A DNA stretch of 41,892 nucleotides, taken from assembly GCA_023249375.1 (NCBI GenBank), contig JAHFCT010000028.1:1-41892 (forward strand). The letters are read 5' to 3'. The notes beneath the pieces were generated by a model. It was not told the DNA's origin. It did no database searches and saw only the letters and a list, made by a program, of their open reading frames with translations. Numbering within the stretch: the first letter of the stretch is position 1; the number at the start of each line of letters is the position of its first letter. This stretch comes from Gemmatimonadota bacterium (GTDB taxonomy: Bacteria; Gemmatimonadota; Gemmatimonadetes; Gemmatimonadales; Gemmatimonadaceae). This document shows positions 956 through 32,722 of this stretch, piece by piece. Position numbers and translations under genes: made by a program.

Positions 956-1007
956 GTGTCAACGCGAAGTGTGAAGCGCGCGAATGGGTGCGTAACTTTC
1001 AGTGGTG

Positions 1008-1037
1008 GGCCGCGAGCGGATCGCGGCCTTTGTATTT
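1008..1037 (+). terminator. Intrinsic terminator after adk-map
   Basis: A perfect 8-base-pair stem GGCCGCGA / TCGCGGCC (1008-1015 and 1021-1028) has a 5-base loop and is followed directly by TTTGTATTT. It lies 52 bases past the map stop and closes that operon. Confidence 0.8.
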
Positions 1038-1058
1038 CATAGGATAACGGCGGACTGC

Positions 1059-1101
1059 TTACCACGGATGAGTCGGATGGGCACGGAGGGACACGGATAC
1101 T
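1059..1101 (+). repeat. ACGGAT-type intergenic repeat, single arm
   Basis: This 43-base stretch begins TTACCACGGATGA and ends ACACGGATACT. It matches the left arm of the palindromic repeat at 18820-18864, differing mainly in the middle. It contains several ACGGA/CGGAT words. No complementary right arm follows here, so it looks like a half element. It lies between the map terminator and the plug-domain gene, outside coding sequence if that gene starts at 1209. Confidence 0.65.
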
Positions 1102-1208
1102 TCGTGGCCCGCGGGTGGAACGGACCGGTTGTGGCGTCTTCAGGGCAATTGCAATGCATCCGGCGCCCACGCAGGTTGGAGAGTGATGAACCCGTTCTCA
1201 TTCCGCTC

Positions 1209-3626
1209 GTGAAACGTCGTGCGTGCGTCGTCGTCGCGCTGTTGGCGCTGATGTCGGCGTCACTGCACGCGCAGCGTGTGCGCGGCGCGGTGTTTCAGGC
1301 GGATGGCACGACGCCGGCGGCGGGTGTGGTGGTGGCCGTGAATGGCGCCGATGGCGCGGTGGCGGCGCGCGCCCTGAGCAGCGGCAACGGTGCGTTCGAC
1401 ATGCATCTGCCGGCGGGGGGCACGTACTCGCTCAGCGCTTTGCGCATTGGCTTCCGGCCGACGGTGGTGGGCGGCGTGTCCGTGCCGGACAGCGGTGCCG
1501 CGACCGTGCGCATCGTGCTTGTCAGCGCACCATTGCCGCTGGCCGCGGTGGATGTTCGCAGTCGAGACGTCTGCGGCACGTCGGGCGATCCGCAGTCGGG
1601 GGTGGTGCAGCTGTGGACGCAGGCACGCACGGCGCTGGCCGCGGCGGCGCTCTGGTCGCGCGAATCGCTCGACGCGGAGTGGATCACGTTTCGGCGCGAA
1701 CTCCGACCGACGACCGATTTTGTGCGATCGCAGGAAGTGCGGCTGACACGCAGCCCCACGACGCACGCCTTCAAGAGCGTCGACGCCGACTCGCTTGCCG
1801 AGTTCGGCTACATGTTCACGGAGGGCGCGATTTCCACGTACCACGCGCCGGATCCTGACGTCCTGCTCTCCGACCGCTTCGCCGAAACGCACTGCTTTCA
1901 CCTCGAGCCCGCGCGCCAGGGCGAGGCCGGACTCGTTGGCGTGGGGTTCACGCCGCAGCGCCTGCGCGATCACCGCGTGGACATCGAGGGGACGCTGTGG
2001 ATGGAGCGCGCGACGTCGGAGCTGCGCTGGCTCGAGTACCGATACGTCGGACTGACGGACGCGGCGGACGCGGCGCAGCCCGGCGGGCGCGTGGAGTTTC
2101 TGCATCTTCCGGACGGCCCGTGGATGGTGAGCCGGTGGCACATCCGCATGCCGTCCTTCGGCGCGCTGCCGGCAACGGACGCGGACGGCGGCTACTCGCG
2201 GTCCGTCGTAAAATCGAACGGCGCGGCGTTGCACGGCGTCAGCGTGGGCGGTGGCATGATCGCCCGCGTGGAGCGGCGCGGCCAACTCCTGTACGAGGGC
2301 GCGGGGAGCGGCGTGGCGCTGCAACTCACGAGCAGCGACGCCGACGTGCGCGTGGCTGGCGCGCTGGTGAAACTCGATGGGACAGACTACGCATGGCGCG
2401 CCGACAGCACGGGACTCGTTCGCGCGTCACCGGTGCTGGACGGACGGTATACAGCGCTGATTGCGACGCCCGAGATGATCGCGCTCGATGCGGCGCCCGT
2501 GGAGCGCGAGCTCAGGGTGAACGTGGGCCGCACGAGACTGGACAGCGCGAGCGTGCCGACGGCGCGAGACATCGTGCGCCGATCCTGCGGCGGTGATGCC
2601 GCGCGGAACGAGCTCGGCGTACTGTACGGCACGGTGCGCGACTCGGCGGGCCGTCCAGCCGCGGGCCGCGCGGTCTTCGTGACCTGGCTCGGCGCGGTTG
2701 CGGCCGCGCCGGGTGGACGGCTGTACGCGGGGCACACGACGATCGGCACGATGGCGGACGACGCGGGCCGCTGGCACGCGTGCGAAGTGCCGCGCGATCG
2801 CGCGCTCACGGCGCGCAGCACGGGCGACGACGGCGCGGCGACGGCCGATGCCGTGATCCCTGCGTCGCGCTGGCTCGCCGAAGTGCCATTGCAGATCACC
2901 AAGATCACGGCGGCGCTCGTGCAGGATTCGACCGTGGCGTCGCTGGAGATCGTGGTGAAGGACGCGGCCGGTATCGCGCTGGGCCCGACGTCGCTCGAGC
3001 TGACCGCGTGGAACGGGGCGCAGCGGAAGATCACGACCGACGCGCGCGGCCGCGCGCTGGTTGCCGCGTTTCCGCCCGGCGCCGTGAAGATGCGCGCCAA
3101 GCGGCCCGGTTACACAACGGGCGACGTCGTCTTCACGGCGGCCGCCGGCCGCAACACCGTGCCGCTCATCCTCGGGCAGGAAACGCTGCCGATGCTCGAC
3201 AGCGTGCGCGTGGCCGGCAACCGGCGCACGTCGTCGCGGATTGACGGGTTCGACACGCGGCGCGCGCGGCGCGAGGCGACGGCCTCGTTCAGCGCCGACG
3301 ACATTGCCAAGCGCGGCGCCTCGGAGATCGCGGACCTGCTGCGCGGCGTGAGCGGCGTGCGAATGATCGACAGCTCGGGCGTGCCGATGGCGGAGCTGCG
3401 GCGCGGCTTTACGATGGATCGCGGCACCAGCGCGCAGCCGTGCCTCATGCGGGTGGTGCTCGATGGTGTCTTGGTGCCAATTCAAGCCGGCGTGAATGTG
3501 GTGCGTCTGCCCGAGGTGCGCGGCGTGGAGGTCTTTGCGTCGTCGGCACGCATGCCGTCGGGGCTTGGCATCACGGCGAGCGACGCCGCGTGCGGCTTGA
3601 TTGCGGTCTACACGGGAAGGGATTAG
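1209..3626 (+). CDS. Secreted carboxypeptidase-regulatory-like protein with C-terminal TonB plug domain
   Basis: About 805 residues. The GTG at 1209 is chosen because it gives a clean signal peptide (VKRRACVVVALLALM...SLHAQ, cut near residue 22). No good ribosome binding site is seen, and TTG at 1176 is an alternative. The mature N-terminus (about 23-110) is a CarboxypepD_reg-like beta-sandwich (RVRGAVFQADGTTPAAGVVV). A second such domain begins near LGVLYGTVRDSAGRPAAGRAVF, and a third is likely near residues 580-650. The last 140 residues resemble a TonB-receptor plug: SADDIAKRGASEIADLLRG, then VVLDGVLVP and VRGVEVFASSARMPSGLG. The protein ends there, so no beta-barrel is present. It is probably a periplasmic or outer-membrane-associated adaptor. 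The exact role is unknown, and the glycosyltransferase begins 3 bases after the stop. Confidence 0.7.
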   Translation: MKRRACVVVALLALMSASLHAQRVRGAVFQADGTTPAAGVVVAVNGADGAVAARALSSGNGAFDMHLPAGGTYSLSALRIGFRPTVVGGVSVPDSGAATVRIVLVSAPLPLAAVDVRSRDVCGTSGDPQSGVVQLWTQARTALAAAALWSRESLDAEWITFRRELRPTTDFVRSQEVRLTRSPTTHAFKSVDADSLAEFGYMFTEGAISTYHAPDPDVLLSDRFAETHCFHLEPARQGEAGLVGVGFTPQRLRDHRVDIEGTLWMERATSELRWLEYRYVGLTDAADAAQPGGRVEFLHLPDGPWMVSRWHIRMPSFGALPATDADGGYSRSVVKSNGAALHGVSVGGGMIARVERRGQLLYEGAGSGVALQLTSSDADVRVAGALVKLDGTDYAWRADSTGLVRASPVLDGRYTALIATPEMIALDAAPVERELRVNVGRTRLDSASVPTARDIVRRSCGGDAARNELGVLYGTVRDSAGRPAAGRAVFVTWLGAVAAAPGGRLYAGHTTIGTMADDAGRWHACEVPRDRALTARSTGDDGAATADAVIPASRWLAEVPLQITKITAALVQDSTVASLEIVVKDAAGIALGPTSLELTAWNGAQRKITTDARGRALVAAFPPGAVKMRAKRPGYTTGDVVFTAAAGRNTVPLILGQETLPMLDSVRVAGNRRTSSRIDGFDTRRARREATASFSADDIAKRGASEIADLLRGVSGVRMIDSSGVPMAELRRGFTMDRGTSAQPCLMRVVLDGVLVPIQAGVNVVRLPEVRGVEVFASSARMPSGLGITASDAACGLIAVYTGRD

Positions 3627-17277: not shown

Positions 17278-18804
17278 ATGCCGAACATGATGGACGATGG
17301 CCTCGACGTGCTGCGGGAGCGCGGCGAGGCCTTTCTCGTGGAGCTGTCGCGCGAGTACTACGAGGCGCACAGCGGGTTGAAGGAGAACGCGCAGTTGCAG
17401 CCGATCTTCAAACGGCACGCGGCGGCGTTTGACGATGAAGCATTCGCCCAGGTGCTGGACCGGTTCCGCGATGCGCCGGCCGGCTCGGACGCGCATTGCT
17501 CGGCACGCCTCCTCCTCGACTGGCTCGTCGAATCTCGCTGCGGACGCGAACTCGCCGCGCTCGAGGAACGCGAGATTGCGTGGGAGGGCTCGGCGAACAT
17601 CACGCTCGCCGACGGCACGGTGGAGCCGTATCAGCGCGCCGCCATTACCGTCGCGAACACGCGCGACAAGAAGGAGCGTCAGGCGCTCGACGATGCGCGC
17701 GCGAAGCTGGTCGAGGACGAGCTTGCCCCGCTCAAACGCGAGCGGCTGGAGCGCGAGCACGAGGTGGTGGCGACACTCGGCGTCGCGCCGGACTACATCA
17801 GCACCTGGGAGGCCTTGAGCGGGTTTGCCGTTCGCCCGCTGCGCGACGCCTGCGCCCAGTTCCTGCGTGACACGCAAGCGATGTGGGACGACGTGCTTCC
17901 CGAAGCGCTCAAACGATCGCTGAGCCTCTCGGTCAGCGAAGCAACGCGCGCCGACGCGGTGGCGCTGATGCGCGCGCCGGAGTTTGACGGCGCGTTTCGC
18001 GCGGAGTCGATGGAGCGCGAGGTGCGGCGGCACGTCACCGACATGGGCGCAAGTCCGGATGCGCGCGGCCGAGTGGTCTTTGACACCGGGGAGCGGCCGG
18101 GCAAGCGCGCACGGGCGTTCTGCTCGCCGGTGCGGATCCCGGACGAGGTGTATCTGGTGCTTCGTCCGCACGGCGGGCAGAACGACTGGACGACGCTGAT
18201 GCACGAACTGGGGCACGCACTGCACTTCGCCAACATGGCGCGCGACCTTCCGTTCGAGTTCCGCTGGCTCGGTGACAACTCGATCACCGAGGGGTACGCG
18301 ATGCTCTTCGATCATCGCCTGCAGGACCGCGGGTGGCTGGCGCGTTACACCGAGCTCTCGAAAGCCGAGATGCCGAAGTATTTGCGCGCGGCCGGCTTTG
18401 AGGAGTTGCAGTTTCTGCGGCGCTACTGCGCCAAGCTCATCTACGAGGTGGAACTGCACGCGGGGACGACGCCGTGGCGTTCGCTGCCCGACTTGTACGT
18501 CGAGACGCTGACGGCGGCGACCGGGTTCCGGTATCAGCGCGCCGACGCATTTCTGGATGTTGACCCGCGATTCTACGCCGCGCGCTATCTGCGCGCGTGG
18601 CAGCTGCAGGCGCTGCTCGACGAGTCACTCCGCGAGCGGTTCAATGATGACTGGTGGCGGAATCCCAAGGCGGGGCCGTGGATTGAAGCCGAGCTCTTTG
18701 GGCACGGCCAGCGGGAACTGGCGTCGGAGCAGGCGGCGCGGGTGGCAGGGAAGGAGCTTGGTTTTGCGCCGTTGGTGCGTTCGATCGAGGGAATGTTCGC
18801 GTGA
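17278..18804 (+). CDS. M3-like zinc metallopeptidase
   Basis: This 508-residue, probably cytoplasmic peptidase has no signal peptide. The gluzincin site is intact: His309, Glu310 and His313 in LMHELGHALHF, with the third zinc ligand Glu338 in NSITEGYAML, 25 residues on as in M3 (thimet oligopeptidase/PepF) enzymes. A conserved later segment (ARYLRAWQLQALLDESLRERF) is also like oligoendopeptidases. It is somewhat shorter than PepF (about 600). It likely trims oligopeptides. It is transcribed with glyQS, 7 bases apart, and is followed by the palindromic ACGGAT repeat. Confidence 0.82.
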   Translation: MPNMMDDGLDVLRERGEAFLVELSREYYEAHSGLKENAQLQPIFKRHAAAFDDEAFAQVLDRFRDAPAGSDAHCSARLLLDWLVESRCGRELAALEEREIAWEGSANITLADGTVEPYQRAAITVANTRDKKERQALDDARAKLVEDELAPLKRERLEREHEVVATLGVAPDYISTWEALSGFAVRPLRDACAQFLRDTQAMWDDVLPEALKRSLSLSVSEATRADAVALMRAPEFDGAFRAESMEREVRRHVTDMGASPDARGRVVFDTGERPGKRARAFCSPVRIPDEVYLVLRPHGGQNDWTTLMHELGHALHFANMARDLPFEFRWLGDNSITEGYAMLFDHRLQDRGWLARYTELSKAEMPKYLRAAGFEELQFLRRYCAKLIYEVELHAGTTPWRSLPDLYVETLTAATGFRYQRADAFLDVDPRFYAARYLRAWQLQALLDESLRERFNDDWWRNPKAGPWIEAELFGHGQRELASEQAARVAGKELGFAPLVRSIEGMFA

Positions 18805-18819
18805 CGGCGCACTGCAACT

Positions 18820-18935
18820 GATTACCACGGATGAATCGGACAACGCACGGATCGACACGGATACTGCTCTTTATCGGGGTTTCCACAGCGCAGGATCCGT
18901 GTTGATCCGTCCTATCCGTGCCATCCGTGGTAGTC
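18820..18935. repeat. Palindromic ACGGAT repeat element
   Basis: The left arm (18820-18864) begins GATTACCACGGATG and ends ACACGGATAC. The right arm (18894-18935) is its imperfect reverse complement, beginning GATCCGTGTTGATCCGT and ending CATCCGTGGTAGTC. About 29 bases separate the arms. A transcript from either strand would fold into a long stem. The left arm is closely similar to 1059-1101. It fills most of the gap between the M3 peptidase and the aminotransferase gene, and no gene is visible in it. Confidence 0.75.
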
Positions 18936-19022
18936 AGTAGAACCCGCCCTTGGCTCCAGACCATCCGGCGTGCACGAAGGCAAGCGCAAATCGGTAGATT
19001 AGAACGGCACCTAATCGAGGGC

Positions 19023-19892
19023 ATGAACATGATCTTCTATCTCAATGGCGAGTACGTTCCCCGCGCCCAGGCGCTGATCCCAGTGGAGGATCGCGGCTTC
19101 ATTTTCGGCGACGGCATCTACGAAGGCGTGCGTTCGGTGAACGGCAAGATGTTCGAGTGGGGGCCGCATGCCGACCGCATGATCAACGGCCTCAACGGCC
19201 TGCGCATCAACTTCAACGCCGACCAGGTGAACGCGCTCGAGGGCGTTTGCGAACAGGTCGTCGAGAAGAACGGGCTCGTCGACGGCGAGGCGTTCCTCTA
19301 CCTCGAGGTCTCGCGCGGCGCGGCGCCGCGCGCCCATGGTTTCCCGCCGGCTACGGTGCATCCGACGGTCTTCGTGTCGGCGTCCAAACTTGTTGTCCCG
19401 CGCAAGATGCGCGACGAAGGGTGCGCCGCGGTCACCTTCCCCGACATGCGCTGGAAGCGGCGCGACTGGAAGACGGTGAACCTCCTCGGCAACGTCCTCG
19501 CCCGTCAGGCGGCTTCCGAAGCGGGCGCCTACGAAGCTATCCTGCACGAGGACGGCATCGTCACCGAGGGTGCGGCCACCAACCTCTTCGCCGTGTTCAA
19601 TGGCGTGCTGCGCACGCACCCGCTCACCCAGCGTATTCTGCCGGGCATCACGCGCAAGGTGGTGATGGAGCTCATCGCCGAGCACAAGCTGCCGGTGGAC
19701 GAGACGCCGGTGGCATTGGATACGCTCGCCGCCGCCGAGGAGATTTTCGTGTGCGGCTCCACGACGGACGTCACGCCGGTGGTGACGATCGACGGCAAGA
19801 GAATAGGCAACGGCACACCCGGTCCGATCACGGTGAAGTTGCGCGAAGCGTTCGAAGCGCGGCTCTATCAGGCGGCGGGCGTCGGCCGTTAG
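19023..19892 (+). CDS. dat: D-amino-acid aminotransferase (PLP fold type IV)
   Basis: This 289-residue cytoplasmic enzyme transfers the amino group between D-amino acids and keto acids, supplying D-Glu or D-Ala for the cell wall. The N-terminus has YLNGEYVPRAQALIPVEDRGFIFGDGIYEG, typical of class IV enzymes. RGAAPRAHGFP matches the R-x-H carboxylate-binding segment of D-enzymes. Lys150 (DWKTVNLLGN) is the PLP lysine and Glu182 (IVTEGAATNLF) holds the pyridine nitrogen. The ATG at 19023 has GAGG upstream. TAGATT at 18995-19000 is a plausible -10 without a clear -35. A branched-chain or 4-amino-4-deoxychorismate lyase role is less likely given the R-x-H motif. The next gene starts 3 bases after its stop. 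Confidence 0.88.
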   Translation: MNMIFYLNGEYVPRAQALIPVEDRGFIFGDGIYEGVRSVNGKMFEWGPHADRMINGLNGLRINFNADQVNALEGVCEQVVEKNGLVDGEAFLYLEVSRGAAPRAHGFPPATVHPTVFVSASKLVVPRKMRDEGCAAVTFPDMRWKRRDWKTVNLLGNVLARQAASEAGAYEAILHEDGIVTEGAATNLFAVFNGVLRTHPLTQRILPGITRKVVMELIAEHKLPVDETPVALDTLAAAEEIFVCGSTTDVTPVVTIDGKRIGNGTPGPITVKLREAFEARLYQAAGVGR

Positions 19893-32619: not shown

Positions 32620-32722
32620 GCAGGGAGGCCAGCGGGGTTCGCGCGAATACTGGAGGGCCCACCGGCGCGCTGTACGCGCCGGTGGGCCCGAGAATTTCGC
32701 GCGAGCTCTGCTGGCCTCCCGC
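32620..32722. terminator. Long imperfect hairpin, probable bidirectional terminator
   Basis: The inner stem is a perfect 15 base pairs: GGGCCCACCGGCGCG at 32655-32669 pairs with 32675-32689 across the loop CTGTA. Outer arms also pair: GGGAGGCCAGC at 32623-32633 with GCTGGCCTCCC at 32710-32720, and TCGCGCGAA with TTCGCGCGA between them. It lies between two convergent genes. No T-tract follows either end. Confidence 0.7.

Follow-up and report, generated by a model that had tools for sequence, protein, structure and literature searches.

The DNA that we analyzed (hereafter the window) is a stretch of 41,892 nucleotides from a Gemmatimonadota bacterium. It corresponds to contig C72 of a 3.81 Mb draft genome in 120 contigs, which we call G000 where it has to be told apart from its relatives. 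An imperfect palindrome occupies positions 18817-18938, in the spacer between a gene with weak similarity to a peptidase family and a gene for an aminotransferase (Table 1). The upstream gene, a conserved neighbor within the genus, ends 12 nt ahead of the element. Each arm of the palindrome carries four ACGGAT-type words set approximately 10 nt apart, and the arms enclose a 32-nt loop. A first-pass annotation of the sequence had described two imperfect inverted arms made of ACGGAT words, and our reading of the arms confirmed this description. An inverted-repeat search found the outer 24 nt of the arms to be 83% complementary. The predicted RNA fold of the element has an energy of -69 kcal/mol, compared with a mean of -35.5 for shuffled sequences (z -9.47; 0 of 200 shuffles folded as well), and the opposite strand gave a z of -9.52. 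The ten-letter word alone occurs at chance level in the window (3 found, 3.15 expected). What stands above chance is the word array and its inverted arrangement, not the single ten-letter word.

Table 1. Positions in the window of the palindrome, its neighboring genes and the half copy
Feature	Position	Strand	Remarks
Upstream neighbor gene	17278..18804	+	weak Peptidase_M3 match below the family cut-off
Left arm	18817..18862	+	outer cap ACTGATTA, then four ACGGAT-type words, one of which is TCGGAC
Loop	18863..18894	no strand	read from the sequence
Right arm, inverted	18895..18938	-	minus strand reads ACTGACTACCACGGATGGCACGGATAGGACGGATCAACACGGAT
Downstream neighbor gene, class IV aminotransferase	19023..19892	+	PF01063
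Half copy, single arm with no partner arm	1054..1101	+	84% identity to the left arm (blastn)

The left arm had also been reported to recur at 1059-1101 with about 85% identity, and blastn recovered this half copy (Table 1). The region around it (1055-1135) folds no better than shuffled sequences (z -0.08). An open reading frame at 1002-3626 spans the half copy and has matches to carboxypeptidase-regulatory and TonB plug domains; the start listed for it, upstream of the half copy, is probably not where the gene begins. The window also holds a separate inverted repeat of different sequence at 32623-32720, with 25-nt arms that are 88% complementary and a 48-nt loop, which begins between two open reading frames. 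None of 4227 Rfam families matched the window above its gathering score. A search for intrinsic terminators (a GC stem followed by a T run) found none on either strand between 18600 and 19200.

The element is one of many in its genome. Used as a blastn query, it returned 76 HSPs, and an exact three-word pattern matched 37 times, compared with 0 matches for a reversed control pattern. We merged the blastn and pattern matches by hand into approximately 35 places, excluding one further place at a contig end. Most of these places are intergenic, and 22 are complete inverted pairs that we aligned. These counts go far beyond the two copies seen in the window and support the annotation's view that such small palindromes between genes form a dispersed family. 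Three of the 35 places were called inside an open reading frame, at least one of them probably because of a misplaced start. The copies look clustered on contigs C1 and C83, which hold 6 places each in 111 kb and 162 kb, respectively.

Both arms of the genomic copies share one consensus, in which an outer cap near TCTTACTGACTACCACGG is followed by words in a fixed order. The loops vary in sequence and in length (the 58-nt end blocks are separated by 11 to 116 nt), and several contain GGGG/CCCC stems followed by T. The outer ends differ among the 22 copies (GGTAG, GGTAA, GGAAG or GGTAT). The two arms of an element are not closer to each other than arms taken from separate elements (as high a value was reached in 9042 of 10000 permutations). 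We dropped the idea that arms are homogenized inside one element, since an element's own arms are no closer to each other than to those of other elements. Arms that are alike across the genome, and not specifically within an element, fit genome-wide homogenization; this likeness does not in itself show that hairpins are maintained. We found no target-site duplication in the 22 elements: the longest direct match between an element's own flanks was 5.14, compared with 5.22 for swapped flanks. The family thus bears no signature of transposition. Neighboring genes could be called at 30 of the 35 places, with orientations taken from a rough codon score on fragments and not from a gene finder; 15 pairs are co-directional, 8 divergent and 7 convergent. 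Convergent neighbors are not in excess, so the copies show no terminator-like preference. Neither this nor the scan of the window copy, which has no terminator-like site, supports transcript ends as the main role, although the element may still affect RNA ends, as had been suggested earlier.

The first-pass annotation had likened the element to REP sequences or other small mobile palindromes. The likeness in kind holds, but the assignment to the REP family does not. A profile search for the REP-type transposase (Y1/RAYT, PF01797) gave 0 matches at E <= 0.01 in this 95.87% complete draft, and the control genomes were positive. A single arm does not fold on itself, and a GTAG (or CGTC) end is not constant among the copies. 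On these grounds we dropped membership in the REP/RAYT family.

We tried the GxxExxY family (PF13366) as another candidate partner. GxxExxY proteins are widely annotated, and we know of no role assigned to them. A profile search found the sole PF13366 gene of the genome at 51709-52044 of contig C1 (TIGR04256, 1.1e-34; PF13366, 8.5e-37). An ACGGAT palindrome (C1:52169-52286) lies directly upstream of this gene, 125 nt away. The gene stands beside a complete palindrome and not inside it, an arrangement that is the same in sister species.

PF13366 is present in 96 of 298 genomes of the window's phylum. We read the flanks of 30 loci, one per genome, which were the best-scoring of the 96 genomes with a match and not a random draw. 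Most of these genes lie between two inverted arrays whose words differ by lineage (ACAGAG, ACGAAG, GCGGAG, ACGGAA or ACGGAT). We scored this arrangement with a two-flank test: the upstream 300 nt of a gene were compared locally with the reverse-complemented downstream 300 nt, and the best match was scored, with a cut at 32. The cut, and the last-letter rule described below, were set after the first data and then applied to new loci (74 from multiple phyla and 59 from the phylum). Scores of at least 32 were reached by 20 of 31 phylum loci (the 30 and the window genome's own), compared with 41 of 930 partner-swapped flanks; the other 11 scored lower. Among them is the own locus (L045, score 20), which fails because its gene adjoins a complete palindrome. 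For the multi-phylum set we took 80 loci from named genomes and dropped six, five for short flanks (L090, L122, L131, L156 and L162) and one for a run of N (L110). The cut was reached by 52 of the remaining 74, with 22 below it, compared with 272 of 5402 swapped flanks and 12 of 1132 mock positions. Bracketed loci in this set include representatives of Luteimonas, Acidobacteriaceae, Ignavibacteriae, Cloacimonadota, Nitrospirae, Chloroflexi, Planctomycetes, Flavobacterium, Magasanikbacteria and a Methanosarcinales archaeon. A further 60 phylum loci were drawn from the same list of matches, and one was dropped for a short flank; 27 of 59 reached the cut and 32 did not, compared with 80 of 3422 swapped flanks. 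PIN genes, which are of similar size and came from the same 298 genomes, served as a control: 0 of 30 were bracketed, and none reached even a score of 28.

The linkage is also visible at the level of whole genomes. Exact ACGGAT arrays occur in 14 of the 298 phylum genomes and ACAGAG arrays, a pattern picked after viewing GxxExxY flanks, in 24, together 37 genomes. PF13366 is found in 30 of these 37, compared with 66 of the remaining 261 (Fisher p 7e-11, ignoring relatedness); counted the other way, arrays occur in 30 of 96 genomes with PF13366 and in 7 of 202 without. Among 17 genomes with at least five arrays, 15 hold PF13366 and 2 do not (p 1.4e-6, again with relatedness ignored). The seven array genomes without a PF13366 match include G165 (18 ACGGAT arrays) and G243 (9 ACAGAG arrays). 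Array matches far outnumber GxxExxY genes, so most copies are gene-less. The linkage of the GxxExxY gene and inverted word arrays is well supported by these results. Two genomes deserve separate mention. Many of the 18 exact arrays in G165 are in a 9-nt phase (CCACGGATTCCACGGATTC); the arrays of this genome may belong to another family or fall within genes. The GxxExxY genes of G230 (L076, L210) lack ACGGAT arms and have a long repeat with AATCGGCCGTTATCC alongside instead.

We compared the words with the proteins that they surround. Genomes tend to use one word: the window's genome has 37 ACGGAT and 0 ACAGAG matches, whereas G004 has 0 and 89 and G025 has 0 and 66. Protein similarity and arm similarity are correlated, with a Mantel r of 0.35 across 71 loci and 0.66 in the phylum set; in both cases, 0 of 5000 permutations reached the observed value. 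The last-letter rule relates the final letter of the word to a motif near the N terminus of the protein, which is of a YN or an H[RST] type. In the first set of 105 loci, in which subfamily is confounded with sample set, YN-type proteins had words ending in T at 23 loci and in G at 2, and H-type proteins had T at 1 and G at 19; the remaining loci either could not be called or belonged to other cells. The replicate of 59 new loci from one phylum gave T at 9 and G at 3 for the YN type, and T at 0 and G at 16 for the H type (p 3e-5), with the remaining 31 loci in other cells and with L290 counted as YN although its sequence reads VHRTLGPG. Genome G031 holds one pair of each kind, a YN-type gene with T words (L279) and an H-type gene with G words (L283). 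Word type follows protein subfamily, with host relatedness as a partial confounder. The spacing of the words can be read from the identity of the GxxExxY arms with themselves at increasing lags, which peaks at 10 (0.43) and 20 (0.37) in the named set and has a weaker peak at 8 to 11 in the phylum set.

Cassettes stand where relatives have an empty site. In Sphingomonas parapaucimobilis, fabD and fabG are separated by a GxxExxY gene with GCGAAG arms, whereas the fabD-fabG spacer of S. paeninsulae is approximately 30 nt long and holds no cassette. Another such site, in genus g4, is the spacer between FAD-oxidoreductase-like and MFS-like genes, which we named from reading the open reading frames. 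It was matched in 14 of 16 genomes, and we give its contents for five. The site is filled in G055 (GxxExxY with three tandem palindromes) and G079 (the gene with one palindrome), compared with G039 and G249, which lack a GxxExxY cassette and carry a palindrome of 7-nt words and another inverted repeat, respectively. G269 has a gene-less ACAGAG palindrome there. At a second site, the two flanks show 96% and 94% identity between G055 and G079, but the gene is only 73% identical (50% at third codon positions) and the arms differ. Near-identical flanks around a divergent gene and divergent arms indicate that the cassette was exchanged. Whole palindromes stand in tandem beside GxxExxY (L344, L345, L207): there are three in G055, compared with a single one in G079 between flanks that are about 95% identical to those of G055, and two in G222.

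Turnover is also evident within the window's genus. At the GxxExxY locus, the gene is present in G000, G031, G123, G222, G230 and G298 (the last read from DNA) and absent in G201, G065, G300, G174 and G299. In G000, G031 and G123, the spacer that holds the window element (18805-19022) contains ACGGAT-type palindromes. In G222, G298, G299 and G201 it is occupied by palindromes of other words, including period-7 types among sister species (L078-L087), and in the sister species G065 it holds no palindrome. GxxExxY had 0 matches in phage records and 8 in 72,556 plasmid records.

The fold of the GxxExxY protein was examined with an AlphaFold2 model built from 48 related sequences (mean pLDDT 94.4). 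The best Foldseek matches were 4ic1 (SSO0001, which we take to be a Cas4 protein) at E 2.8e-5 and 2wiw, the archaeal Hjc of Archaeoglobus, at E 1e-3. VIA-align, applied to the best 1000 Foldseek chains, ranked 4ic1 first with a Z of 10.1 (rmsd 3.2 over 96 residues), followed by a second row at 7.9, and gave the Hjc structure 1gef a Z of 7.1. A profile-sequence search of solved structures found no relative (one match, E 0.28), and PADLOC returned only weak matches to Cas4-like and RT-associated PDDEXK proteins. Residues E37, D76 and E86 are invariant across the 48 sequences and K88 is conserved in at least 90% of them, a pattern that presumably represents the catalytic site of a PD-(D/E)XK nuclease. 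The model confidently predicts a single-domain PD-(D/E)XK protein with a restriction-endonuclease-like fold, and nuclease activity is predicted accordingly from the model and the motif. A junction-resolvase-like fold would fit a palindromic substrate; a fold does not itself show function.

A second gene family is bracketed in a similar manner. Genes for the S23 four-helix bundle (PF05635) are present in 159 of the 298 phylum genomes. We examined 30 S23 loci (L169-L198) and dropped L185; inverted arrays bracket the gene in 25 of the 29, compared with 26 of 812 swapped flanks. The arm words of these loci have a period of 7, with identities of 0.70, 0.67 and 0.65 at lags 7, 14 and 21. XCC0516 of Xanthomonas campestris is an S23 relative with a solved structure (2gsc, E 6.4e-27).

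We propose, with a probability of roughly 0.6, that the window element derives from a cassette encoding a nuclease that targets the cassette's own arms; the element itself would be a REP-like form that lacks the gene. The family would consist of inverted word-array palindromes, with GxxExxY as the partner gene either between two arms or beside a complete palindrome. The GxxExxY protein would recognize the approximately 10-nt words that make up its own arms, either as helically phased sites in duplex DNA or in an extruded hairpin or cruciform, and would cut these arrays. Repair of the break from other copies would homogenize arm sequences across the genome. Now and then, repair would also place a copy of the palindrome at a new intergenic site, sometimes together with the gene and sometimes alone. 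The window element would be one such gene-less copy, and any effects on transcripts there would be secondary. The comparisons directly show dispersal, gene-arm linkage, the match of words to proteins, empty sites, cassette exchange, tandem copies and a conserved nuclease motif; from these we infer binding, cutting and copying by repair, with the nuclease and not another enzyme as the driver of copying.

The main alternative is that another enzyme moves the palindromes, with GxxExxY as their cargo or as an arm-binding regulator. The arms might then act as an operator or hairpin substrate, perhaps in the control of the gene's own mRNA. We regard this as unlikely, though less so than the explanations that follow. 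The bracketing of S23, an unrelated family that is not a known nuclease, by 7-nt-word arrays (25 of 29) speaks for it, since it suggests that the arms may be the mobile part, with the gene as their partner; the lack of target-site duplications, and with it of a transposition signature, points the same way. The correspondence between word type and protein subfamily, which recurs in the within-phylum replicate, argues against it, as do the conserved residues of the nuclease motif. A Y1 transposase was not found in the draft genome, and we know of no candidate enzyme that could move the palindromes in place of GxxExxY.

It is improbable that the palindromes are kept as RNA hairpins, either terminators or 3'-end stabilizers, with the gene associated by hitch-hiking. 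Such a role would leave the PIN control (0 of 30) and the match of word to protein unexplained. The strong fold of the window element is consistent with it, as are the loops with GGGG/CCCC stems followed by T, but the window copy has no terminator-like site and 8 of the 30 callable copies lie between divergent genes, compared with 7 between convergent ones. The occupation of one spacer by different palindrome families in different species, which we observed both at the window locus and at the locus compared in G055, G039, G249 and G269, could reflect selection for a hairpin of any sequence; G065, however, has no palindrome at the window locus.

We give very little credence to a protein-free origin in which replication slippage and the correction of quasi-palindromes alone would enlarge the arrays. 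Templating within a hairpin should make the arms of one element more alike than those of different elements, the opposite of what we found, and slippage does not explain the tight linkage to two gene families or the PIN control, even though the arms consist of short, variably spaced words in tandem and whole units duplicate in tandem. Least probable of all, to the point of being nearly negligible, is a classical REP/REPIN or TIRtron family whose Y1 (HUH) transposase is missing from the 120-contig draft: the design is the same (dispersed intergenic palindromes and one flanked partner gene), and the available part of PMC3733652 records TIRtrons with dispersed TIR families, but PF01797 has no match, the arm forms no hairpin and the linked gene codes for a PD-(D/E)XK protein.

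If the cassette with a self-targeting nuclease is the correct reading, it would supply GxxExxY with a substrate, a biological setting and a recognition code, which lies in the last letter of the word, and would assign a partner to a very common class of intergenic repeat. A broader generalization is tempting, and we offer it tentatively, as somewhat less probable than its negation. Bacteria and archaea may harbor a large, unrecognized class of mobile cassettes that need no transposase, in which inverted arrays of short words enclose a small protein that acts on DNA; both families would belong to it. Arms and protein would co-evolve and shed dozens of gene-less palindromes, and the GxxExxY kind (approximately 10-nt words) and the S23 kind (7-nt words) would replace each other at the same intergenic sites. 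A search of the full-text literature outside most subscription journals and all preprints found no account of GxxExxY together with repeats, and a search for the arm words gave only unrelated subjects among the matches listed.

We compared the family to known repeat systems. Heptameric repeats (GGGAATC and GGGGA(C/T)T) form dispersed arrays in Xanthomonas and Nostoc; according to the available part of PMC4692102, there are 70 cases of inverted pairs in X. campestris and few paired arrays in Nostoc, and no general link of the repeats with mobile elements is reported. As dispersed arrays of short words that occur in inverted pairs, they resemble the 7-nt arrays around S23 genes. Their words are of 7 nt, unlike the approximately 10-nt words of the window family, and that part of PMC4692102 names no partner gene. 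If the S23 parallel is true, it would tie the Xanthomonas and Nostoc repeats to a family of proteins whose structure has been solved (2gsc). MITEs are likewise short, non-autonomous elements that have terminal inverted repeats, which are present here, and an autonomous relative that carries a gene. The window family differs from them in that its 22 elements have no target-site duplication and we saw no DDE transposase as a partner.

The closest parallels are REPtrons and TIRtrons. REP, BIME and REPIN sequences with their RAYT genes are dispersed intergenic palindromes, often inverted pairs and mostly gene-less, and one or a few partner genes are flanked by the same repeats, as is the case here. 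The partner in REPtrons is a Y1/HUH transposase, whereas here it is a PD-(D/E)XK protein. A REP unit of 20-40 nt forms a hairpin by itself and conserves GTAG (or CGTC) at one end; the arm described here is an array of approximately 10-nt words that does not fold on itself, with no such constant end among the copies. In TIRtrons, TIRYT genes lie between long terminal inverted repeats that share a GGGGWSAS motif and in some cases form dispersed families, as described in the available part of PMC3733652. Like the family described here, TIRtrons have a small gene for DNA processing flanked by inverted repeats, part of which are dispersed. The TIRtron gene codes for a tyrosine (HUH) transposase, whereas the gene bracketed here is GxxExxY (PF13366), and periodic ACGGAT or ACAGAG words are not mentioned in that part of PMC3733652. 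The family works like a REPtron or TIRtron, yet it is not a member of either: we looked for a Y1 gene, a self-folding unit and a constant GTAG, and found none of the three. If our reading of the cassette is correct, REP-like repeat populations have also arisen around a nuclease that is unrelated to HUH transposases.
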